This document shows, piece by piece, positions 11,839 through 21,797 of a stretch of 22,255 nucleotides of DNA. How positions within the stretch are numbered: position 1 is the stretch's first letter; each line of letters starts with the position of its first letter. The translations under genes were made by a program, and so were the position numbers. This stretch comes from a virus, in the IMG/VR virus record IMGVR_UViG_3300042515_002333, positions 1 to 22,255 of that record, one strand, 5' to 3'. The notes below the pieces were generated by a model. It made no database searches. It was not told where the DNA came from and saw nothing but the letters and a program-made list of their open reading frames with translations.

Positions 11839-12777
11839 TTAATTGAAGAAGGCTGCCACCGCAGCCGCCGTCGCCGTGTCTGGCCTTGAGCCCGTGCGGC
11901 GAGCCCCTGGGCTGTTGCTGATCAGCAAGCCCGACCAGTCTTTCTTCTTGTAGATGGTGTCGATGACGAGGCACCGCGGGCGTTGCACGAGCAGGCCGCT
12001 CGCCGAGGTGTCAGAGCGGTAGACCACCCACGGGTACTCCCACCCCTCCTTGAGCGTCGGTTGCAACCCCTTCACGTAGAACTCAGGATCGTTCGCTCTG
12101 ACCTGCCAGTCGAACGTGACAGTCGCGTATGGCTGGTCGCCGCTCCACTGAGCACGGCCGCCCATAAACAGGGCCTCGCCTGGCGAGAATGCTCGGAACT
12201 GCGCTGCGTTGACGGTTCCGGTGAGTGAGTAGACCGATTTCGCGAATGCGGGCGAGAGCCCAAGCTGGGCCGGCATGATCCACGTTTCGCTGTATTTCAT
12301 CGCCGGCACGACAACGTCAATTCCTTGGACGCTTGTACCTTGCAGGTTGATAGCACCCTCGAAAAATTCATTCCCATTGCCGCCAACTACACGTTCCTCG
12401 CGAGCGCTGGTGATGTGCTCCGTTGAACCCGTCGTGTCCCACGCGATCGAGCCGGCAACGAGCGAACTGTTGCTGTTGTCGCCACCGTCGCCGCCTCCCG
12501 AATCCGACACTGGCACGAGTGTCGTGTATTCGCCAGCGACCTCAAAACACTGCTTTCCAACACCCTTAATCGAGAGCCCCTTACGGCGCCAGTATCCGGA
12601 TGCAGCTGCACAATACCGCGGCAGGTAGTCGGCGATAGCGTCCTTCACCTCGGCCATTCCGCCGGGGCATTGCCCGATCAGATACTTCTTGGTGACGTTC
12701 CAGACTTCTCCCGACTCGAGCTCGTTGTCGACGCTGCCACTTTCGGAGTCGCGAAGCTCATAGACGGCATAGCTCAT
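11839..12777 (-). CDS. Putative minor tail protein, 312 residues
   Basis: The gene follows the tape measure gene with an ATGA overlap, the usual place for a distal tail or minor tail protein. The N-terminal 90 residues are mixed alpha-beta and contain CPGGMAEVKDAIADYLPRYC. A Gly/Asp/Ser linker (SDSGGGDGGDNSNSS) separates a beta-rich C-terminal part with WIMPAQLGLSPAF, TFDWQVRANDPEF and GWEYPWVVYR. No named family is evident. The C-terminus is Ala/Thr-rich and probably flexible. Confidence 0.65.
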   Translation of the reverse strand: MSYAVYELRDSESGSVDNELESGEVWNVTKKYLIGQCPGGMAEVKDAIADYLPRYCAAASGYWRRKGLSIKGVGKQCFEVAGEYTTLVPVSDSGGGDGGDNSNSSLVAGSIAWDTTGSTEHITSAREERVVGGNGNEFFEGAINLQGTSVQGIDVVVPAMKYSETWIMPAQLGLSPAFAKSVYSLTGTVNAAQFRAFSPGEALFMGGRAQWSGDQPYATVTFDWQVRANDPEFYVKGLQPTLKEGWEYPWVVYRSDTSASGLLVQRPRCLVIDTIYKKKDWSGLLISNSPGARRTGSRPDTATAAAVAAFFN

Positions 12778-15326
12778 TGGAACGCAAGCTCCGGGGCCTT
12801 CTTGTCAGCGATCTTGGTGAGGGCCGCCAGCATCGACTTGGAGATTTCGGTTCCGGCATTGATCGCGGCAACGATCTCGCTGCCGACCTGCTGGAATACG
12901 ATGCCGGTCTGTGACACTTCCATCGCGGCTTGCACCCCCTGCGCCGCCCCTTGACGCACAACGGGCGCGCGGGCCGCGACGGCGTCCATTGCGACATTCG
13001 GGGCGGCGGCCGCCGCGGCCTGTTGATGGCCGGCCATAGCCGCGTTGCCGCCGAGGGCAAGCAGGTCGCCTGCCGTCGAATTCGGATCGGCGGCCATCAT
13101 CGCGATCGCGTCCAGCTGGGCCTGGAACTCTCCAGGGGCAAGGGCAGGGGCGGCAGGCATCGCAACCGCTGCCACCTCAGGCTGCGGCTGCCCCGCCATC
13201 CTGCCGACGGCATCGGCAGTTCGCTCCGTGGCGGCCGCCGTCCGCTGGGCCGGGTCCTCGAGCTTCCCGAGCTCAGGGCCGATGGCCAGGCCGACGCCGC
13301 TCCAGTTACCGGCCGACGCGATGCCCTTGTCCTTCTTCGACTCGCCCTCTGGGGGCGGCATGAAGGCCCCCGGAGGGGCCGGCGGCAGCTTCTTCACCAC
13401 CGGCTTGCCGTCTGGCTGCTTCGGCTCTTCGTTGACCTTGGCAATGTCCTCGCCGCGGGCACGCTTTCTGGCCCGCTCGCCGTCCTCTCGCAGCTGCTTG
13501 ATCGTGTCCTCAAACCCACTATCCCGCTTCTTGATTTCCTCGTTGCGGGCCTGGGCGGCCTTCTCTCGCTCCTGCTTGCGCTGCTCGGCCCTGGCGTCAG
13601 CCGTCGGCGCCCGCTGGCGGGCCTCCTCGACGCGGGCCTCTACCTTCTTGAGCGCGTCGCTCATGCCGTTCACAGCAAAATCCCAGTCGAACGCAGCCCG
13701 GAAATACACGCCCAGCTTTTCAAAGCCTTCCTGCAGCGTCAGGATGTCGGCACCGAATAGCCCCATGAATCGGTCGAGCCCTTGGATCAACATGTCGCCA
13801 ACAAACTGCGACGTCGCGACGACGGTGTTTTTGACGAGGTCGAATGCCTGAGCAAACGCTTGGTGCATCTGTACCAGGGCGATCGCGAGATTGATGTTCA
13901 TCACCTGCCAGGCGGCACCAAAGTCGAGCCGCATGAGGGCGGCACCAATCGCGTCGGTTTCTTCCTTGAATGCCGGCGAGAGGGTGCGGGCGACCATCAC
14001 GCCACCGGCGATCGCGGCCGACACGGAAGCGACCGCCAGGCCGATCGGAGAGAACAGGGCGGGGATTAGGGGCAGGACGGCTTGAATAACGCGGAGGCCG
14101 GTCGCGAGTCCCTGGAGGGCGATCCCGGCGACAATGGATGCCACCCCCAAGCTGAACAGGGCCGCGGTGCCGCCGGCCACGATCGTCACGAGCGTGCCGT
14201 TCCGCGAGATGAAGTCGCCGACCACGGCGAGCAGCTTTGTGAACCCCTGCACGGCCTGCGTGGCGATCGGCCCCATCGATTCGATCAGCTGCACCTTGAG
14301 CACGCCGAACTGTGCGCCAAGCTGGGCGACGGCACCTCCGAACGATCCCATTACCGCGGTTGCCTTGCCGAGCGCCGTGCCGCCGGAGTTCTGGATGGTG
14401 CCCAGCACGTCATTGAACTTATCTCGCATGTTTGACAACGACATTGCGGCATTTGCACCGCGAATCTCAAAGATGTCAGTGAACAGCTTGATCCTGTCGA
14501 CGTTGCTCATACCGGCAGTCTTCTTGCCGAGGTCCTCAAGCACATCCATGAACGGACGCATGCCACCTGCGGCATCGCGAGTGCTGACTCCGAGCCCAGC
14601 CAGCTTGTCTTCTTCATTGGCGATCGACTCAATCACGCGCGCGAGGCCAGTGCCGCCGAGCGAGCCGCGGAGTCCTGCGTCCGCGAGGGTGGCAATAGCT
14701 GCAGCCACGTCGTCGAACGATTGACCAGCCTCCTGTGCTTTCGGGCCAACGTAGGAAAGCGCCTCACCGATCGAGTCGACGCTCGTGGTCGATGCGTTGG
14801 CGGTCGCTTGGAGCTTGTCGGCGATCGCCCCGAAATCGTTGGTCGTCATGCCGAACTGGGCCATCGTGCTGACGGCCACTTCGACGGCACGCGCCAGTTC
14901 CATGTTGTCTGCCGCCGCCACAGCGAGGATCGGACTGATCGACTTCATCACGCCTTCGGCGTCGAGGCCCGCCTTTGCGAGCTCGCTCATCGCACCGGCC
15001 ACCTCTTCCGGCGCCCGGCCGAACTGAACGGCGAAGCTCTTGGCCGACGCATTCAGCTGGGCGAACTGCTGATCGGTCGCCCCCGTGTTCGCCCGCACCC
15101 TCGCCATCTCCAAGCTGAACGCGGCCGCCGTCCTGGCCGCCATGATGAACGGAGCACCGAGAGCGGTGCCGCCAATCATCATGCCAGTGCCGGCCTGACG
15201 CATCTGCGTGCCCAGAGTCATCAAGCGGGCGCGGATGCGGCTCATTGCCTGCTGAAACTGCCCGTCGCGGGCAAAGATTTCAATGTATGTGCCGCCGGCA
15301 CGAATTTCCCCTGCGCTAGCCGCCAT
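12774..15326 (-). CDS. Tail tape measure protein, TP901 family
   Basis: An 850-residue protein, by far the longest in the window, that would set tail length and help DNA entry. Residues about 75-330 match the TP901-type core domain: FSLEMARVRANTGATDQQFA, then AMSELAKAGLDAEGVM, AVEVAVSTMAQFGM, and DKLQATANASTTSVDSIGEA. Residues 377-446 form a long hydrophobic stretch with several membrane-like segments. Residues about 565-640 are highly charged and coiled-coil-like, and the C-terminal third is Ala/Pro-rich. ATG 15326 has GGAGG six bases upstream and overlaps the end of the frameshifted chaperone frame by 11 bases, the classical order of chaperone then tape measure. Confidence 0.93.
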   Translation of the reverse strand: MAASAGEIRAGGTYIEIFARDGQFQQAMSRIRARLMTLGTQMRQAGTGMMIGGTALGAPFIMAARTAAAFSLEMARVRANTGATDQQFAQLNASAKSFAVQFGRAPEEVAGAMSELAKAGLDAEGVMKSISPILAVAAADNMELARAVEVAVSTMAQFGMTTNDFGAIADKLQATANASTTSVDSIGEALSYVGPKAQEAGQSFDDVAAAIATLADAGLRGSLGGTGLARVIESIANEEDKLAGLGVSTRDAAGGMRPFMDVLEDLGKKTAGMSNVDRIKLFTDIFEIRGANAAMSLSNMRDKFNDVLGTIQNSGGTALGKATAVMGSFGGAVAQLGAQFGVLKVQLIESMGPIATQAVQGFTKLLAVVGDFISRNGTLVTIVAGGTAALFSLGVASIVAGIALQGLATGLRVIQAVLPLIPALFSPIGLAVASVSAAIAGGVMVARTLSPAFKEETDAIGAALMRLDFGAAWQVMNINLAIALVQMHQAFAQAFDLVKNTVVATSQFVGDMLIQGLDRFMGLFGADILTLQEGFEKLGVYFRAAFDWDFAVNGMSDALKKVEARVEEARQRAPTADARAEQRKQEREKAAQARNEEIKKRDSGFEDTIKQLREDGERARKRARGEDIAKVNEEPKQPDGKPVVKKLPPAPPGAFMPPPEGESKKDKGIASAGNWSGVGLAIGPELGKLEDPAQRTAAATERTADAVGRMAGQPQPEVAAVAMPAAPALAPGEFQAQLDAIAMMAADPNSTAGDLLALGGNAAMAGHQQAAAAAAPNVAMDAVAARAPVVRQGAAQGVQAAMEVSQTGIVFQQVGSEIVAAINAGTEISKSMLAALTKIADKKAPELAFQ

Positions 15327-16049
15327 CCGGCACCTCCGGCTTTAGAGGCCGAAATCCGAATGCCATGAGCAGGTCGGGCGTGGCCTCGAGCGGCTTGGGC
15401 TTCGCGACGCGATAGAACGGATGGTAGTGGTACATGGTCGGGGCCGGCTCGCCGCTCTCTTCGTTGTGGTGGATCTGAGCCCAGAGGCTCATCAGCGTCG
15501 CCGTGTGCGTCCAGTTTTCGTGCTGCCGGCCATCTGCAAGCCAGACGAGCTCCCGGAGGGTGAAACTCCAGGGCTCGACTCCGACGATGCCGGCGAGATG
15601 GAACCCGAGCTCCCATGCATCTGCAGGGCCTGCTCGAACTCGCACGACGCCAGCGCCTTGTCGATCGCCGTCGCCGCTGCCGTCTCCATCTTCCTCTCCG
15701 TCTCCCGGAGCTTCTGGATCACCTTCTTCACCAGCCCCTTTCGGGGCTCTTGGAAAAAATCGGATACCTGATCGACAAGCCGCTCGACGGCTTCCTTGAG
15801 CACGCCCCCGTCGCACGCCGAGAAGAATTCATCGTCGGCCATGTCGAGCGTGGCCAGCTGCGGCCGCACAACGGCACAGATCACCTCGAGCACCTTGAGG
15901 TCGTCCGCGACCCAGCCCGAGAGCGTTTCCTTGTCGAGGTTGCAGATGTCGAGGACGTTGACGCCGCACAGGTCGCGGACGCGCTTGACCGTGAGGTAAT
16001 TCACCTCGACCAGCCACTCCCTGCCGTCAAGTGTCTTGAACTTTGCCAT
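15316..16049 (-). CDS. Tail assembly chaperone fusion (G-T type), made by -1 frameshift
   Basis: This is the long form of the chaperone. Translation starts at ATG 16049, continues in frame to the slippery site at 15759-15753, slips back one base and ends at TAG 15316, giving 244 residues. The first 99 residues equal the short form; the extension starts PRAPKGAGEEGDPEAPGDGE, an acidic Gly/Pro-rich linker, followed by the conserved GIVGVEPWSFTLRELVWLAD, then GRQHENWTHTATLMSLWAQI. That FTLREL/W...A block is typical of the T-part of G-T proteins. The frame has no convincing start of its own and lies exactly between tail tube and tape measure genes. In known phages the fusion binds tape measure and tail tube proteins during assembly. 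Confidence 0.82.
15492..16049 (-). CDS. Tail assembly chaperone, short form (G-type)
   Basis: A 185-residue product of the unshifted frame. It starts MAKFKTLDGREWLVEVNYLT and contains VRDLCGVNVLDICN and a long helical part (LVDQVSDFFQEPRKGLVKKV), with a Ser/Gly-rich tail beyond the shift point. The start ATG 16049 overlaps the previous stop as TGATG. In lambda-like phages the short form greatly outnumbers the fusion and both are needed for tail assembly but absent from the mature virion. The low-complexity C-terminus after residue 150 is where the other frame carries the conserved T-domain. Confidence 0.82.
   Translation of the reverse strand: MAKFKTLDGREWLVEVNYLTVKRVRDLCGVNVLDICNLDKETLSGWVADDLKVLEVICAVVRPQLATLDMADDEFFSACDGGVLKEAVERLVDQVSDFFQEPRKGLVKKVIQKLRETERKMETAAATAIDKALASCEFEQALQMHGSSGSISPASSESSPGVSPSGSSSGLQMAGSTKTGRTRRR
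15733..15759 (-). promoter_or_regulatory. Programmed -1 frameshift site with GNRA-loop hairpin
   Basis: On the minus strand the heptamer T TTT TTC (15759 to 15753) is in the canonical X XXY YYZ phase of the short chaperone frame, whose codons read GAT TTT TTC. Four bases later a perfect 6-bp stem AGCCCC/GGGGCT (15748-15743 with 15738-15733) closes on a GAAA tetraloop. A -1 slip here leads directly into the open frame carrying the conserved T-domain. All elements are visible in the sequence; the efficiency of slipping is not. Confidence 0.85.
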
Positions 16050-16405
16050 CAGCTGTAAGGCCAGAGTTTGAGGATCACTTCGTAGGCGAGCACGCCGCTA
16101 AACTGCCCAGCCACCTTGAGCTTGTGCACAAGGAAATTCGCGGCCGAACCGTCAATCGAAATTCGCACCGGCTGCGGCGGAAACCGGTTCCACTTAGCCA
16201 TCAGTCGGCGCACGTCTTCCGCGTGGTAAATCTGCAACGTGACCGTGTTGGCCTCGGTGAGCGTGAGCTCGCCGCGGACAGACGAATCCCACGGCGTGAC
16301 GTCAACCGTATCGAGATCAAGGTCGATGTCGAAGTCACGCGTGCCGTTCAGCACGACGCCGTCAGCGTAGATCGGTGTCTTCCTGGCGAGGCGGACCTTG
16401 GCCAC
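16049..16405 (-). CDS. Tail-tube-like protein, third of three paralogues
   Basis: A 118-residue beta-rich protein starting MAKVRLARKTPIYADGVVLN. The segment RDFDIDLDLDTVDVT aligns with VVDVDLNASGDEVDIT and VQDVSMTIEAEKVDAT in the two genes upstream, at a similar distance from each N-terminus. The start is GTG 16405 with GAGG six bases upstream. It ends at the start of the chaperone gene. Proteins of this size and position form the tail tube or its terminal rings; which of the three is the main tube protein cannot be said. Confidence 0.65.
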   Translation of the reverse strand: MAKVRLARKTPIYADGVVLNGTRDFDIDLDLDTVDVTPWDSSVRGELTLTEANTVTLQIYHAEDVRRLMAKWNRFPPQPVRISIDGSAANFLVHKLKVAGQFSGVLAYEVILKLWPYS

Positions 16406-16420
16406 AGGTCACCTCGGAGA

Positions 16421-16753
16421 TCAGGATGCGTCCGCTGCCGGTGCGTAGGTGATCGTGTACTCGTGGCGCCCCTTCGGGGTCACCTTGTCCTTGACGTCCA
16501 GCACAACGCAGCCAACGGCAGTCATGCCGCCGACAGTGATCGGGCCGGTGGCTCCGACGGTGGCGGAGTGCTGCGTGGCCGTCACCTCGACAGTCACATC
16601 AAGCAGGCCGCATCCGATCTGCTTCTCAGTGTCGCCAAACACGGTGATATCGACCTCGTCGCCGCTGGCGTTCAGGTCAACGTCGACCACATTATCAAGC
16701 GCGACACCAGGTGCCGTGACGAGCGCATTCTTTCCGAGCCTATATTTGGCCAT
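16421..16753 (-). CDS. Tail-tube-like protein, second of three paralogues
   Basis: A 110-residue protein beginning MAKYRLGKNALVTAPGVALD, followed by VDVDLNASGDEVDITVFGDT and VTVEVTATQHSATV. It resembles both neighbours in N-terminal pattern and strand order. The start ATG 16753 has GAGG followed by five bases, the same leader arrangement as the gene upstream. The C-terminus is a basic strand (PKGRHEYTITYAPAADAS). Tandem duplication with divergence is the simplest explanation of the three genes. Confidence 0.68.
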   Translation of the reverse strand: MAKYRLGKNALVTAPGVALDNVVDVDLNASGDEVDITVFGDTEKQIGCGLLDVTVEVTATQHSATVGATGPITVGGMTAVGCVVLDVKDKVTPKGRHEYTITYAPAADAS

Positions 16754-16771
16754 GTGACCCTCGCGTGGTGG

Positions 16772-17137
16772 TTAGACGGTGACCTGGTCGCCGGCGTCGA
16801 GAGCGATGCCCGGCTTGATCGTGATCGAGACGGCTTCCGCGCCACCGATCGGCTGCGTCCGCTTTGCGCTGGTGACAACACCGGTGATTGCGAAAGCAGT
16901 GCCGCCGCTGGGCGTGACGGTGACGGCCACGAGCTTGCCGTAAGTCTGAGACGAGTCACCCAGAACTGTGGCCTCGAGCGTGCGAGCCTGCAGGCCGGCG
17001 ACGGTACGCTTGTAGACCCCAGAAGAGCCCTTTGTCGTGGCGTCGACCTTCTCGGCCTCGATGGTCATCGAGACGTCCTGGACACCCGTCAGGCCAGTGA
17101 TTGTCGTGTCTTTTCCGAGATAAATGGTCGTTGGCAT
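16772..17137 (-). CDS. Tail-tube-like protein, first of three paralogues
   Basis: A 121-residue protein starting MPTTIYLGKDTTITGLTGVQ, then DVSMTIEAEKVDATTKGSSG and VAGLQARTLEATVLG. Almost the whole chain is beta-type with Thr and Val, as in phage tail tube proteins. The start ATG 17137 is chosen because GAGG lies five bases upstream; another in-frame start at 17161 has no site. It follows the tail completion genes, as the major tail protein usually does, so it is the best candidate for the main tube subunit. Confidence 0.68.
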   Translation of the reverse strand: MPTTIYLGKDTTITGLTGVQDVSMTIEAEKVDATTKGSSGVYKRTVAGLQARTLEATVLGDSSQTYGKLVAVTVTPSGGTAFAITGVVTSAKRTQPIGGAEAVSITIKPGIALDAGDQVTV

Positions 17138-17192
17138 GTGGTCCTCGCGTAGAGAAGGCACCTATCGCCAGTATACATGAACAGATGGCCAC

Positions 17193-17915
17193 CTACCCGA
17201 CGCGGAACCGCCCCTCGAACTCCCTCGCGATGCGTCCGCGGCGAATGCCCTCGAGCATTGCAGGGAACATGAACGCACGTTGTGGGTAGACGAAAGTCTG
17301 GCGGAAGCTGGACGTCAACTCCCAGTTTCGCGTGTTCCGCGGCCCCTTGCCGACGCGATACCATGCCAGAATTCCCTTGTAGCCGCGGTCATACTTCGGG
17401 ATCCACGCCCACGCTGCCATGCGCTGCGTCCCGCCATGCTCGTGCAGGCTGGCGATATAGGGGGCACCGTCCATGAACGCGCCGACCACGACCGATTCAG
17501 TCGACGGGTCGTATTGGTAGGTGATCGACCGCCGCAGTGTGCCAAAGTGCGTGTGCGGAGGCGTGCCGGCTTGGCTCGGCGGACGAAACTTGATTTCAAA
17601 GATCCGCTCGCGGATTTTCCGTTTCGTGCGATCGTTGATGTCGCGGCGTGCCAGCAACTCACGCAGGCTTGCATCAGGGTTTGCCCGCATGACCTTCAGC
17701 TGCGGCTTTGCCAGGCCCATCTTCTTGATACTGCGGCGACTGATCTGCATCACGACCGATCCGGCCGAATACAGCCCGCGGTAGATCGCTTTGTCGAGCG
17801 CCTTCTGCACGCTCGCACGATCAAAAAAGAAGTCGAAGTTGATCCGCATCGGGATCGTCGGGCCGGAGAGCCCGGAGCCGAGCGGATTGCGGCCGGCAGG
17901 GAGGAGGATGCTCAT
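17193..17915 (-). CDS. HK97 gp10-like / minor capsid or tail completion protein
   Basis: A 240-residue protein. The N-terminal part starts MSILLPAGRNPLGSG and then has helices (RASVQKALDKAIYRGLYSAG, VVMQISRRSIKKMG). The central segment RPPSQAGTPPHTHFGTLRRS is the usual PP.xx.GxLRrSI motif of the HK97 gp10-like family, followed by VVVGAFMDGAPYIASLHEHG and the closing YPQRAFMFPAMLEG (family: RPFMxPAL). ATG 17915 overlaps the upstream stop as ATGA; a start at 17981 would read into the Pro/Thr/Gly tail of the previous gene. It would act at the head-tail joint. Confidence 0.78.
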   Translation of the reverse strand: MSILLPAGRNPLGSGLSGPTIPMRINFDFFFDRASVQKALDKAIYRGLYSAGSVVMQISRRSIKKMGLAKPQLKVMRANPDASLRELLARRDINDRTKRKIRERIFEIKFRPPSQAGTPPHTHFGTLRRSITYQYDPSTESVVVGAFMDGAPYIASLHEHGGTQRMAAWAWIPKYDRGYKGILAWYRVGKGPRNTRNWELTSSFRQTFVYPQRAFMFPAMLEGIRRGRIAREFEGRFRVG

Positions 17916-18421
17916 GCGCCGGTTGCCCCCGTCGGTCCCGTGGGTGCTACCGGCACCCACTTGTCGACCGGCACGTCCCACTGCACGCTGACCTGCGACA
18001 TGAAGACGTTGCGGGCCTCAAGCAGTTCCGGATCGTAGGGCAGGGGGTTGCCGACCTCGGTCCAGTCTGTGTTCTCTGGCAGCCCAGACGGCTGGATGAA
18101 GTTAGACCGGATCGCGTCCACGATCTCCTGGCAGAGATCCTCTAGGGCGACGATTTCTGACTCGCTCCCGACGTGCTGTGCGACGACGATGCCGGTCGAG
18201 ACGTCGGCCACCTCCATGCCACGGGTTTCGGTTTTCATCGTGTACGGCCCGGGCACGACCGACACACGCAGCATGCCGAGATCCTCGAGGCCGTAGTCGG
18301 GCTTGCGTTGCATGACGGCGCTGATCGTGCCGCCGGGCACGCTGCCCCACGTGAATGCCGAGAGGGCGGCGGCGAGCCGCGTGGCGACGTTACGCGAGAT
18401 GTGAGGACTGAGGGTTGGCAT
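17912..18421 (-). CDS. Tail terminator-like protein with a collagen-like tail
   Basis: A 169-residue protein placed between the glycan cassette and the gp10-like gene. It starts with a helix (RNVATRLAAALSAF), then beta-rich sequence (LGMLRVSVVPGPYTMKTETR) and a helix (LEDLCQEIVDAIRSNF), the plan of small tail terminator proteins. The last residues VAPTGPTGATGA form collagen-like triplets, the same Gly-Pro-Thr style as the fibre at 21099-21746. The start ATG 18421 abuts the stop of the glycosyltransferase. Assignment is from order and general plan. Confidence 0.6.
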   Translation of the reverse strand: MPTLSPHISRNVATRLAAALSAFTWGSVPGGTISAVMQRKPDYGLEDLGMLRVSVVPGPYTMKTETRGMEVADVSTGIVVAQHVGSESEIVALEDLCQEIVDAIRSNFIQPSGLPENTDWTEVGNPLPYDPELLEARNVFMSQVSVQWDVPVDKWVPVAPTGPTGATGA

Positions 18422-19480
18422 CTATCGCTCCTGGGGGCCGGGGATGTTCGTCGTGAGCTCGAGCTCCAAGCGGCCGACCGCTGCCGCCGTCTCCTGTGAC
18501 GAGTGCCGGCGGAACGCCTCGCGGGCGTGCTCCAGGGCCTCCTGCTTGAGTCCGAGGCTGTAGGCCGCCGTGGCGGCAATCTCCGGGGCACGGTGGCCGT
18601 AGGCCACCGGGTCGCTTGTGTGGCTCTGCCGATCGGCTGGTGCCATTGCCGCTCGCCTAGACCAGTGCAGGGCTCCAACGGCGTCGCCGGCATCCCAGCA
18701 CGCCTCGCCGAGGGCCAGATAGCCCTCCGGCTCGTGGGGCGACTCCTCAATGGTCCTCAACAGCCAGTTGCCGGCTTTCTCCGGCTGCCGGCGGGCGAGC
18801 ACGCGGTACGCATAGGCCCGCTCGCAAGCCGTCCCGCCGGGGAGCGTGAGGTAGTGCTCAAACGCCTCCACGATCCCGGGCTGGTCGTGGTAGTCGAGTT
18901 CGCGGGCGAGATACCAGTGCATCCGGGCATCGTGCGGGGCCTCGCGGACGGCTTGCCGCAAGAGGGTGAGGTCTGTCTTGTGCTGCTTGCCCGGCTGACG
19001 GTGGTGACGGATGAGCGTCTGCTCGCAGTGCGTCTGCACCTCATAGTCGTTCCATCGCACCAGCCCCTCGTGCGTGGCCCCAGTCCACCGGTAGCCAGCC
19101 CGCAGGTGAATGCGGTCGCTCTTGAACCGCAGGGCTTCGCTCCACTGGTACCAATACCGGAGCTTGGTCGTTTCCGGCTTCCAGGCCGCCTCCAACGCAT
19201 CACGCCAGCCCGGGTCGAGGACCTCATCAAGATCAAGCCGGATCGCGACGTCGACGTGGGCCGGCAGGTGGTGTAGCGACAGGTTGTGGGCATCGTCCCA
19301 CCGCCACGGCACCACGTTTCCGCGGGCCACCGTCACGCCGGCCGCCTCGAGCAGCTGCACGGTGTCGTCGGTCGAGCCGGTGTCGGTGACGATCCGCACG
19401 TCGGCGTCGCGGCACGACGCCTCCCACGCCGCGACGTTCCCTGCCTCATTCTTCGCGAGAGCGTAGATGCCGATGACCAT
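18422..19480 (-). CDS. GT2 glycosyltransferase with C-terminal TPR-like helices
   Basis: A 352-residue enzyme. The N-terminal GT-A domain shows YALAKNEAGNVAAW (6-19), VTDTGSTDDTVQLL (31-44), WRWDDAHNLSL (59-69) and the metal and nucleotide-sugar motif RLDLDEVL (D83 and D85). From about residue 175 the sequence becomes helical repeats (RMHWYLARELDYHDQPGIVE, then EPEGYLALGEACWDAGDAVG), like TPR units. It would transfer a sugar from a nucleotide donor, to a protein or glycan not known here. ATG 19480 has GGAGG four bases upstream and overlaps the methyltransferase stop as TGATG. Together with its two neighbours it forms a glycan cassette within virion genes. Confidence 0.85.
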   Translation of the reverse strand: MVIGIYALAKNEAGNVAAWEASCRDADVRIVTDTGSTDDTVQLLEAAGVTVARGNVVPWRWDDAHNLSLHHLPAHVDVAIRLDLDEVLDPGWRDALEAAWKPETTKLRYWYQWSEALRFKSDRIHLRAGYRWTGATHEGLVRWNDYEVQTHCEQTLIRHHRQPGKQHKTDLTLLRQAVREAPHDARMHWYLARELDYHDQPGIVEAFEHYLTLPGGTACERAYAYRVLARRQPEKAGNWLLRTIEESPHEPEGYLALGEACWDAGDAVGALHWSRRAAMAPADRQSHTSDPVAYGHRAPEIAATAAYSLGLKQEALEHAREAFRRHSSQETAAAVGRLELELTTNIPGPQER

Positions 19481-20034
19481 CAAGCCTCCACAAGCACGGC
19501 GACCTTCCGCAGCCCGTCATGGAAATAGACCGGCTCGCGTCCGCTCTCTTCGCCAAACTCCTCGACGGCCCGCTCGACCTCCGGGTTGTCGCAGTCATCG
19601 GCCAGGATCACCGGTACGTGAGCCACCAGCCGCAGATCAGCCAGAGCTCCTGCATAGGAGTGGTCGCCGTCCACGTGGGCGAAGTCGGCCGGGGGCAGCT
19701 GCTGCAGGTCATGACTGTTGGCGACGATCAGCTGTGCGTCGATGCCAAGCGAGTCGACAACGCTCTGCCAGTGCTGCAGGCACGCAGGACTGTCGGCGTC
19801 GAGGGCACCGTCCACGCAAAGAAACTTCGCGTCAGGCGCCACGACATGAAAAGACGCGAGCGAGTAGCCGCACCGCGTTCCGATCTCAATCACGCTCGAC
19901 GGCTTGTACTCGCGGCACACACGTGCCTTGGCGGCATAGTGGCCAACGGCCTCCGGCGAACACGGAAACCAGTCTCCTGGCATCCAGTGAATCCGCAGTC
20001 GGTCGCCAACCTGGTCCTCAAGCTCGTCACCCAT
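19480..20034 (-). CDS. Class I SAM-dependent methyltransferase
   Basis: A 184-residue enzyme with a Rossmann fold. Visible motifs: VIEIGTRCGYS (48-58, motif I, SAM binding), LCVDGALD (71-78), and FAHVDGDHSY (117-126), followed by PVILADDCDNPEV. The pattern fits the Methyltransf_24 type, often found beside glycosyltransferases and acting on sugars or small molecules. The start at 20034 has GGAGG five bases upstream; a TTG at 20046 is in frame but lies in that site. It overlaps the upstream gene by eight bases and the glycosyltransferase gene by one, indicating tight co-expression. Confidence 0.83.
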   Translation of the reverse strand: MGDELEDQVGDRLRIHWMPGDWFPCSPEAVGHYAAKARVCREYKPSSVIEIGTRCGYSLASFHVVAPDAKFLCVDGALDADSPACLQHWQSVVDSLGIDAQLIVANSHDLQQLPPADFAHVDGDHSYAGALADLRLVAHVPVILADDCDNPEVERAVEEFGEESGREPVYFHDGLRKVAVLVEA

Positions 20035-21091
20035 CGTTTCCTCCAATCAATGCCAGAACCTGGGACACACTCATCTCGGCCATCCACGCCTCAGCGTCGC
20101 GCACGCCGAACGTCGCCACCAACTGGTCGCCACGCCTGGCGAGCCCGGCCGCGAATTCAATCGTTCGCTTTTCGCGAAACGCGAAAGCCGGGGACCAACC
20201 GATGATGTCGCAGCTATCCCCAAACAGCACGAACCGGTGCTCATAGATGCGGCGGCCTTCGTCATCGGCCACCTCGTGCACCAAGCACAGCCATCTGCCG
20301 TCACCGGCGTCGATAACTTGCGAGCCTCCACGCCAGCCGCGTGCAATCGCCGGCGACTGCCCTCGGCGGTCGATCTTCCACTCGCTTCCGTTGCGTGAAA
20401 CGAATGCCGTGCGGCCATCTTCCCAGCACGAATAGAGCCAGCTATCTGCGCCGACAATCGGCATCCAGTTCTTTTCGTGACGCCCCGGGCACGGCTCGTC
20501 GAGCATCGCCGCGTCGATGATGCTCGCCATGTGCGGCAGAAGCGTGGCCGTGGCAATCCTGCACGTGCCGTCGCGGCCCGCCCAGTTGCGAACGGTGGCG
20601 CTCACCCGCATTTCGCCGTCGATCGAATTGAGCCTGCAGTCCTCCAAGCCGACCACCGGATAGTTTGATTTCGGGTAGAGCGGGTCGGGCATGCCAGCCA
20701 CCTCGCCCTGCACTGCGAGAGACTTGTCGAGTCGCACCAGCATGTTCACCGTGCGGATCGTCTCGCCGTCGGCCGGCGGGATCACGTACCGTCCGTCCAC
20801 GATCGTGTAGTTACTCGACCGCACGATTGCCAGGTAGCCTTCGTCGTGCGAGATGATGGTTGGATTGAATGTCGACCAACCTTCTTGGGCCGGCTCAACG
20901 TCGAAGCGGTGAAAGCGGCACCCGACGAGCTCGTCGAGCGTCTGCGTGTACCAGCTGCGATTGCGTCGCACGAGCCGCTCCTTTTCGGGCGTCAACTGCA
21001 TCGCCAGCAGCGTCTCGCACGCTCGCCGACCAGCGTCGAGCTCGCCAGCGTAGTAAGCGTGCACGGCCAGCTGGTAAAGGTGCTCGATCAT
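20027..21091 (-). CDS. GH130/GH43-like beta-propeller protein
   Basis: A 354-residue protein. Residues 1-55 are helical and TPR-like (MIEHLYQLAVHAYYAGELDA). The rest is beta-propeller-like with FNPTI (75-79), GYLAIVRSSNY, VNMLVRLDKSL, GLEDCRL (148-154) and EKNWMP (206-211), the order and style of GH130-related proteins, in which the ED-R and KNW.P motifs contribute to the active site. Members act as mannoside phosphorylases or glycosidases, but this call is by motif only and the protein could bind rather than cleave glycans. ATG 21091 has GAGG five bases upstream. It opens the three-gene cassette with the methyltransferase and glycosyltransferase. Confidence 0.65.
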   Translation of the reverse strand: MIEHLYQLAVHAYYAGELDAGRRACETLLAMQLTPEKERLVRRNRSWYTQTLDELVGCRFHRFDVEPAQEGWSTFNPTIISHDEGYLAIVRSSNYTIVDGRYVIPPADGETIRTVNMLVRLDKSLAVQGEVAGMPDPLYPKSNYPVVGLEDCRLNSIDGEMRVSATVRNWAGRDGTCRIATATLLPHMASIIDAAMLDEPCPGRHEKNWMPIVGADSWLYSCWEDGRTAFVSRNGSEWKIDRRGQSPAIARGWRGGSQVIDAGDGRWLCLVHEVADDEGRRIYEHRFVLFGDSCDIIGWSPAFAFREKRTIEFAAGLARRGDQLVATFGVRDAEAWMAEMSVSQVLALIGGNDG

Positions 21092-21098
21092 GCAAGCC

Positions 21099-21746
21099 TC
21101 ACGAAGTGGCGGCCGACTTGATTGCAGCCCTGAGCGTCGCGTTGCTGTTCACGGCCGCGATGACGTCGGCGATCGTCAGCGAGCCAGTAGGTCCTGTCGG
21201 GCCGGCAATAGACACCGCAGCCGGCCATGTGGCGTTGAACTTTGGGCCGAAAAACTGCTTGCCTGTGATGTCGAACGCAAAGTCGCCATCCTTTCCGACG
21301 TTGGAGTTGGGCGTGCCCGCCACGGCGACGATCGTGGCGCCGTCGACGCCGACTGGGCCGGTGGCCCCCGGCGTTCCTGTCGGCCCGGTGATGCTTTGGC
21401 CAGCCGGCCCCGTCGAACCGCCCGGCCCCGTCGGACCCTGAGCTCCAGACTGCAGCTGCAGCGGCGAGCCCCACGAGCCGTCGGCCTTCGGCCCATAGAG
21501 GCGGCCGTTGGTCGTGTCGAGAAAGAAGTCGCGGGCGTTGCCAAAGCCGTTCGATGGAGCCCCGGAGCCGCCGTAGAACTGCGAGCCGTCAGACCCTGTC
21601 GGGCCTGTCACGCCGGTGGCAGGAAGCCATGCAGATCCGCTCCACGCGAGCACCTGATTGGCGGCAGGAGCGGTCGCCGACACTGGGCGACCCTGCAGCT
21701 GAGTAGCGTTGCCGCTGAGTGTGGCTGGCAGCGAAAAGTAGGGCAT
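21099..21746 (-). CDS. Collagen-like tail fibre with duplicated module
   Basis: A 215-residue protein. The N-terminus MPYFSLPATLSGNATQLQGR leads to VSATAPAANQVLAWSGSAWL, a segment common in phage fibres. Two related modules follow, at about 52-102 (DFFLDTTNGRLYGPKADGSW) and 134-181 (DFAFDITGKQFFGPKFNATW), each next to Gly-X-Y stretches such as GPTGPGGSTGPAGQ and GPTGTPGATGPVG. A helical segment (IADVIAAVNSNATLRAAIKS) ends the chain and may trimerise it. ATG 21746 has GGAG seven bases upstream. It is probably a host-contacting fibre and a possible target for the glycan enzymes encoded just downstream. Confidence 0.8.
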   Translation of the reverse strand: MPYFSLPATLSGNATQLQGRPVSATAPAANQVLAWSGSAWLPATGVTGPTGSDGSQFYGGSGAPSNGFGNARDFFLDTTNGRLYGPKADGSWGSPLQLQSGAQGPTGPGGSTGPAGQSITGPTGTPGATGPVGVDGATIVAVAGTPNSNVGKDGDFAFDITGKQFFGPKFNATWPAAVSIAGPTGPTGSLTIADVIAAVNSNATLRAAIKSAATS

Positions 21747-21797
21747 GGTTAAGCTCCAAAAGTGTTCTGCCACGATCGCGGCTGGCGGCAAATAGCA

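Follow-up and report, generated by a model that had tools for sequence, protein, structure and literature searches.

The production of two tail-building proteins from one gene by means of a -1 slip is well known in tailed phages. In phage lambda the slip takes place at the heptamer G GGA AAG, and the short protein G and the fusion GT are made in a ratio of approximately 30:1 (PMC5009743). The E/E+E' pair of phage P2 depends on a heptamer of the U-run class (T TTT TTG). In HK97 (gp13/gp14) and in the phages of Xu et al., a chaperone frameshift fusion is likewise encoded ahead of the tape measure gene (PMC10885494). The window analyzed here, a stretch of 22,255 nucleotides of viral DNA (positions 1 to 22,255 of IMG/VR virus record IMGVR_UViG_3300042515_002333), carries a locus that resembles each of these. 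With lambda it shares a gene located before the tape measure gene, a predicted -1 slip at a heptamer (here T TTT TTC), and a predicted pair of products, one short and G-like and the other a G-T-like fusion; with P2 it shares the class of the heptamer and its location just ahead of the tape measure. We conclude that the tail assembly chaperone gene of the window very probably contains a lambda G/GT-type programmed -1 ribosomal frameshift. The signal, its conservation and replacement among relatives, the double coding that follows it, and the resemblance of the shifted product to Phage_tail_T are all supported by sequence evidence, and the coordinates of the features are collected in Table 1.

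Table 1. Predicted features of the chaperone locus, with positions in the window and the basis for each.
Feature	Positions	Strand	Basis
Tape measure protein, directly downstream of the chaperone gene	12774-15326	minus	PF10145 E 4.8e-39; phrog_28 E 1.8e-62
-1 frame extension, 145 codons and stop, starts PRAPKG	15316-15753	minus	predicted fusion of 244 aa
T-like domain of the predicted fusion (approximately -1 residues 43-115: PADAWELGFHLAGIVGVEPWSFTLRELVWLADGRQ...)	15409-15627	minus	conserved family-wide; PF06223 in 12/35 members
0-frame stop codon, 86 codons past the slip	15492-15494	minus	
0-frame tail assembly chaperone (G-like), 185 aa	15492-16049	minus	AlphaFold2 mean pLDDT 77.8; Foldseek viral list rich in chaperones
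0-frame C-terminal helical region (codons 103-146), missing from the fusion	15612-15743	minus	AlphaFold2 model; third-position variation
Hairpin AGCCCC-GAAA-GGGGCT, putative stimulator	15733-15748	minus	-12.8 kcal/mol, z = -3.35
Spacer CAAG between heptamer and stem	15749-15752	minus	sequence
Slippery heptamer T TTT TTC (codons 97-99, GAT TTT TTC)	15753-15759	minus	22/22 close and 28/40 non-redundant relatives, at the aligned column

Identification of the 0-frame protein as a probable chaperone draws on its predicted structure and on its neighbors. Its sequence matched no chaperone family, and sequence and fold searches of the PDB with the chaperone returned nothing meaningful. Profile comparison of the family yielded nothing against HK97 gp13, and in single-template comparisons there was no significant match to lambda G or lambda T. 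When the AlphaFold2 model of the 0-frame protein was compared with viral models by Foldseek, the first-ranked match was a tail assembly chaperone (E 8.7e-3, probability 1.00), followed lower in the list by more tail assembly chaperones and a "pre-tape measure frameshift protein G", with none of the matches reaching E 0.001. The gene lies between one or more putative tail tube genes and the tape measure gene, and the upstream gene at 16421-16753 weakly resembles a major tail protein (phrog_10528, E 0.0021). In the model, the slip falls at the end of a helix formed by residues 81-98, and this helix is followed by two others (residues 103-135 and 138-146) and a disordered tail. Residues 1-99 are common to the 0-frame chaperone and the predicted fusion.

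The initial annotation had described T TTT TTC as standing in the correct codon phase and four bases before a hairpin, and both statements are borne out: the 0-frame reading GAT TTT TTC is the phase required for a -1 slip at this heptamer, and the gap consists of four bases. In the chaperone gene this is the sole X XXY YYZ heptamer whose Y is A or T, and the 23 window genes scanned contain four in all. Two viral-contig searches provided 22 distinct close sequences, including the window, with pairwise nucleotide identities of at least 73% (median 81%) over codons 1-94. TTTTTTC is found at the same codon in every one of them. GAT represents 17% of the Asp codons and TTT 20% of the Phe codons in the first 94 codons, and both are used at the site by 22/22 sequences; no other minority codon located 5' of codon 95 is invariant in the close relatives. 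All 22 also have a -1 frame that stays open as far as the same region, and their 0-frame stop falls at codon 186 or 187. Just 5' of the heptamer, the Val95 codon (15765-15767, minus strand) is GTA in 18 of the 22 close relatives, GTA accounting for 3% of Val codons. A Shine-Dalgarno-like upstream stimulator (CAGGTA, approximately 7 nt 5' of the heptamer) was considered as a candidate and rejected as too inconsistent among relatives.

In viral contigs, profile searches recovered numerous loci at 30-45% identity; a nucleotide search of the annotated phage collection gave no match, and the P0001 search of genome contigs returned none. In the distant relatives examined, the T-like domain is encoded -1 relative to an ORF that lies upstream and starts approximately with M-x-x-F-x-D-x-x-G-R-x-W (in L125, the upstream part is cut off). 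A -1 frame closed between the site and the domain, named beforehand as a finding that would speak against the frameshift, was seen in none of the relatives examined. Within a non-redundant set of 40 chaperone sequences (median pairwise identity 36%), T TTT TTC occupies the aligned column in 28, and some X XXY YYZ heptamer is located within three codons in 33; the background elsewhere is 0.0024 per codon, and a simple binomial calculation, which ignores shared ancestry, gives approximately 3e-52. Where the heptamer is replaced, A AAT TTT stands one codon upstream (L048, L051, and L127), or T TTT TTT stands one codon (L059) or two codons (L073) upstream. A full X XXY YYZ is missing at the site in 7/40. 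Only a T TTT run is left there in L128, L102, L064, and L046, and L086 (2983-3169), L099, and L104 (2899-3109) have TTC TTC or TAC TTC and no slippery run, with the T-like domain still in the -1 frame. The frozen minority codons in close relatives, together with the other slippery heptamers in relatives, indicate that the heptamer is conserved beyond the constraint imposed by the amino acids. In many distant relatives (L049, L053, L055, and others) the sequence is T TTT TTC CCN, and the first heptamer is overlapped by another, T TTC CCN; the codon after the heptamer is CAA in the window.

The hairpin is less uniform. It had been presented as a perfect 6-bp GC stem with a GAAA loop, and the length and the loop are as described, the stem being composed of five G-C pairs and one A-U pair rather than of G-C pairs throughout. 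The folding energy refers to a 24-nt fragment and the z value to dinucleotide shuffles. An alignment of related phages had been expected to show both heptamer and stem kept; among close relatives this holds for the heptamer and for five of the six stem pairs, which are unvarying in 17 distinct close sequences, and fails for the innermost pair, which is lost in 7/17. No covariation or compensatory change was found in the stem among these 17 sequences, and Rfam gave no match anywhere in the window. The GNRA tetraloop, initially proposed as part of the signal, is not conserved; the loops are GAAA, GCAA, GGAA, GACG, GCAG, GGAG, and AGGAAG over a 5-bp stem. Because the loop varies in this way, the GNRA cap is incidental.

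Ribosomes might slip at the heptamer without any part being played by the hairpin, which would then be a by-product of the double coding. At each invariant position of the stem, no other base would fit the residues found in the two frames, in a test that is partly circular because the permitted residues were drawn from the same sequences. Since both frames constrain the stem bases, a stimulatory role of the hairpin is confounded with double coding, and the lack of compensatory change, the loss of the innermost pair, and a downstream fold that differs in shape and distance in distant relatives all favor the by-product reading. Two observations argue for a function, however. Minority codons are frozen in the stem arms of the close relatives (CCC, which makes up 5% of Pro codons, and GGG, which makes up 19% of Gly codons), and across the 40-relative family folding is stronger in the 40 nt 3' of the site than in windows taken upstream in each gene (mean z -1.21 vs -0.17, Mann-Whitney p 1.2e-7). 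This family-wide difference speaks for a structure of some kind after the site but does not establish that relatives have one in common, and we consider it rather unlikely that the hairpin has no role.

The -1 frame is open from approximately 69 nt 5' of the heptamer to 15316, and it overlaps the start of the tape measure gene (15326) by 11 bases. After the slip it reads PRAPKGAGEEGD...FTLRELVWLAD..., continuing to 15316 (a longer excerpt reads PRAPKGAGEEGDPEAPG...DAWELGFHLAGIVGVEPWSFTLRELVWLADGRQ...), and with the 99 shared residues its 145 codons make up the predicted fusion. The -1 domain of the window itself reached no family in Pfam or PHROGs. Among 35 family members, 12 match PF06223 (Phage_tail_T), the family named for lambda T, in this domain; the best match has E 7.4e-5 and 23.5 bits, and all family matches seen fall below the curated cut-off of 25.9, making for a weak resemblance. 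A Foldseek search with a model of the T domain (pLDDT 66) ranked the tail assembly protein GT of phage N15 first, at E 1.1, and was discounted as evidence.

Variation among relatives shifts from one frame to the other along the gene. Per-position entropy, calculated from related sequences unweighted by tree, is 0.31/0.15/0.83 at 0-frame positions 1/2/3 in codons 1-94, where variation is found at the third position. In codons 107-140 the pattern is mixed (0.46/0.43/0.67), with the 0-frame third position still highest. In codons 146-185 it is 0.07/0.60/0.20, and the variable 0-frame second positions correspond to -1 third positions; past the 0-frame stop, the -1 frame has an ordinary coding pattern. 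This suggests that the 0-frame helical stretch is kept as protein, and that the -1 frame is kept loosely in the linker and strongly in the T-like domain.

Alternatively, the -1 frame could be an independent gene that starts within the overlap, in the window at the GTG of -1 codon 37, with the heptamer incidental. The -1 frame of the window does contain GTG codons, including one in the linker, and the T-like domain starts well past the slip, after a weakly constrained linker. These GTG codons lack a Shine-Dalgarno-like motif in a simple test, however, and between the previous stop and the domain the -1 frame has no ATG, GTG, or TTG in 16/40 relatives, with the domain core located in 14. The core was not located in two of the 16 (L090 and L094) or in L052, one of several such cases, and their empty start lists are uninformative; the safe count is therefore at least 14. 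A -1 stop codon lies directly against the heptamer in L083. A gene with its own start would furthermore leave the frozen GAT TTT TTC and the replacement by A AAT TTT unexplained, and we regard it as highly improbable.

Six Ts are a short run for transcriptional slippage. Although such slippage is known in bacteria (PMC5009743) and the heptamer contains a run of this length, a change of frame by RNA polymerase instead of the ribosome has very little probability, because in L127 the arrangement persists on A AAT TTT ACC, which has four Ts only, and in L048 and L051 it persists on five. The appearance of A AAT TTT or T TTT TTT in place of the heptamer also argues for slippage by the ribosome and against slippage by the polymerase on a T run.

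The programmed -1 ribosomal frameshift is the reading that we prefer, as did the initial annotation, and it is supported by the deeply conserved slippery codons, the heptamer replacement, the start-less -1 frames, and the switch in substitution pattern. The course first ascribed to the -1 frame, through an acidic linker to the FTLRELVWLAD domain and the tape measure start, was recovered. The lambda G/G-T arrangement is also supported, by double coding, -1 frames without starts, weak Phage_tail_T similarity, and a place just ahead of the tape measure gene. The majority of ribosomes would stay in the 0 frame and make the 185-aa G-like chaperone. A minority would slip at T TTT TTC, leaving GAT TTT TTC for the -1 frame, probably with help from the downstream hairpin, and would make the 244-aa G-T-like fusion consisting of residues 1-99, an acidic Gly-rich linker, and the T-like domain. 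If the parallel with lambda holds, residues 1-99 would bind the tape measure protein, and recruitment of the tail tube protein would fall to the T domain.

Other genes of the window were noted in passing. Upstream of the chaperone gene, 16049-17161 holds three short consecutive genes (118, 110, and 129 aa), of which 16049-16405 and 16421-16753 are nearest; one of the three has a weak match to a baseplate hub (E 0.014), and they may be tail tube paralogues. The predicted protein at 17912-18421 ends in a collagen-like GPTGPTGATGA tail, and it is this tail that overlaps the ORF start of the next gene. The region 18422-21791, possibly a tail-fibre modification cassette, includes a methyltransferase gene (PF13578, 19480-20046) between two genes without a Pfam match, the first of which looks glycosyltransferase-like by eye; a collagen-like GPTG-repeat protein (21099-21791) adjoins the methyltransferase group. 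The C-terminal part of 7409-8239 matches the N-terminal domain of dATP/dGTP diphosphohydrolase (PF18909, E 1.6e-18). A plus-strand ORF at 1385-2419 has a match under the family cut-off to Phage_integrase (PF00589, E 7.6e-5), a hint that the phage is temperate.

A search of genome contigs with the family alignment of the -1 domain recovered seven loci: five from records titled Planctomycetota or Phycisphaerales, one from an uncultured bacterium, and one from a Thermoplasmatota MAG. Because five of the seven are in Planctomycetota- or Phycisphaerales-titled records, the hosts are probably Planctomycetota; no paper on frameshifting in planctomycete phages was found in the literature that could be searched. 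The broader proposal, that a chaperone family, probably of Planctomycetota phages, uses a deep slip (32-86 codons before the stop in the non-redundant family, median 58.5) to swap the C-terminal helix for a linker and T domain, seems to us evenly poised. If it is true, the difference between the two products would extend beyond the T domain to their self-assembly, and a fusion without the C-terminal helix could help to show the role of the C-terminus of G-type proteins. With this locus the known tail-chaperone frameshifts gain a probable further family, deeply divergent and apparently widespread, whose phages seem to infect Planctomycetota, and the exchange of T TTT TTC for A AAT TTT at the same place is evolutionary evidence for slippage beyond one motif.

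The depth of the slip sets this locus apart from the described systems. In lambda the slip occurs 5 codons before the end of G and GT keeps almost all of G, and in P2 the distance from slip to stop is 6 codons, whereas 86 codons (258 nt) follow the slip here. The stretch in which a shift is possible measures 61 nt in lambda, 34 nt in P2, and 49 nt in HK97, compared with approximately 330 nt at this locus. Slip-to-stop distances average 26 nt for the SEA-PHAGES phages and 36 nt for those of Xu et al., figures that as means leave room for other deep slips, and the PRFect predictor largely fails at slips approximately 260 bases before the 0-frame stop (PMC10885494). With the slip 86 codons before the 0-frame stop, the predicted fusion would drop the C-terminal helical part of the chaperone instead of extending the chaperone.
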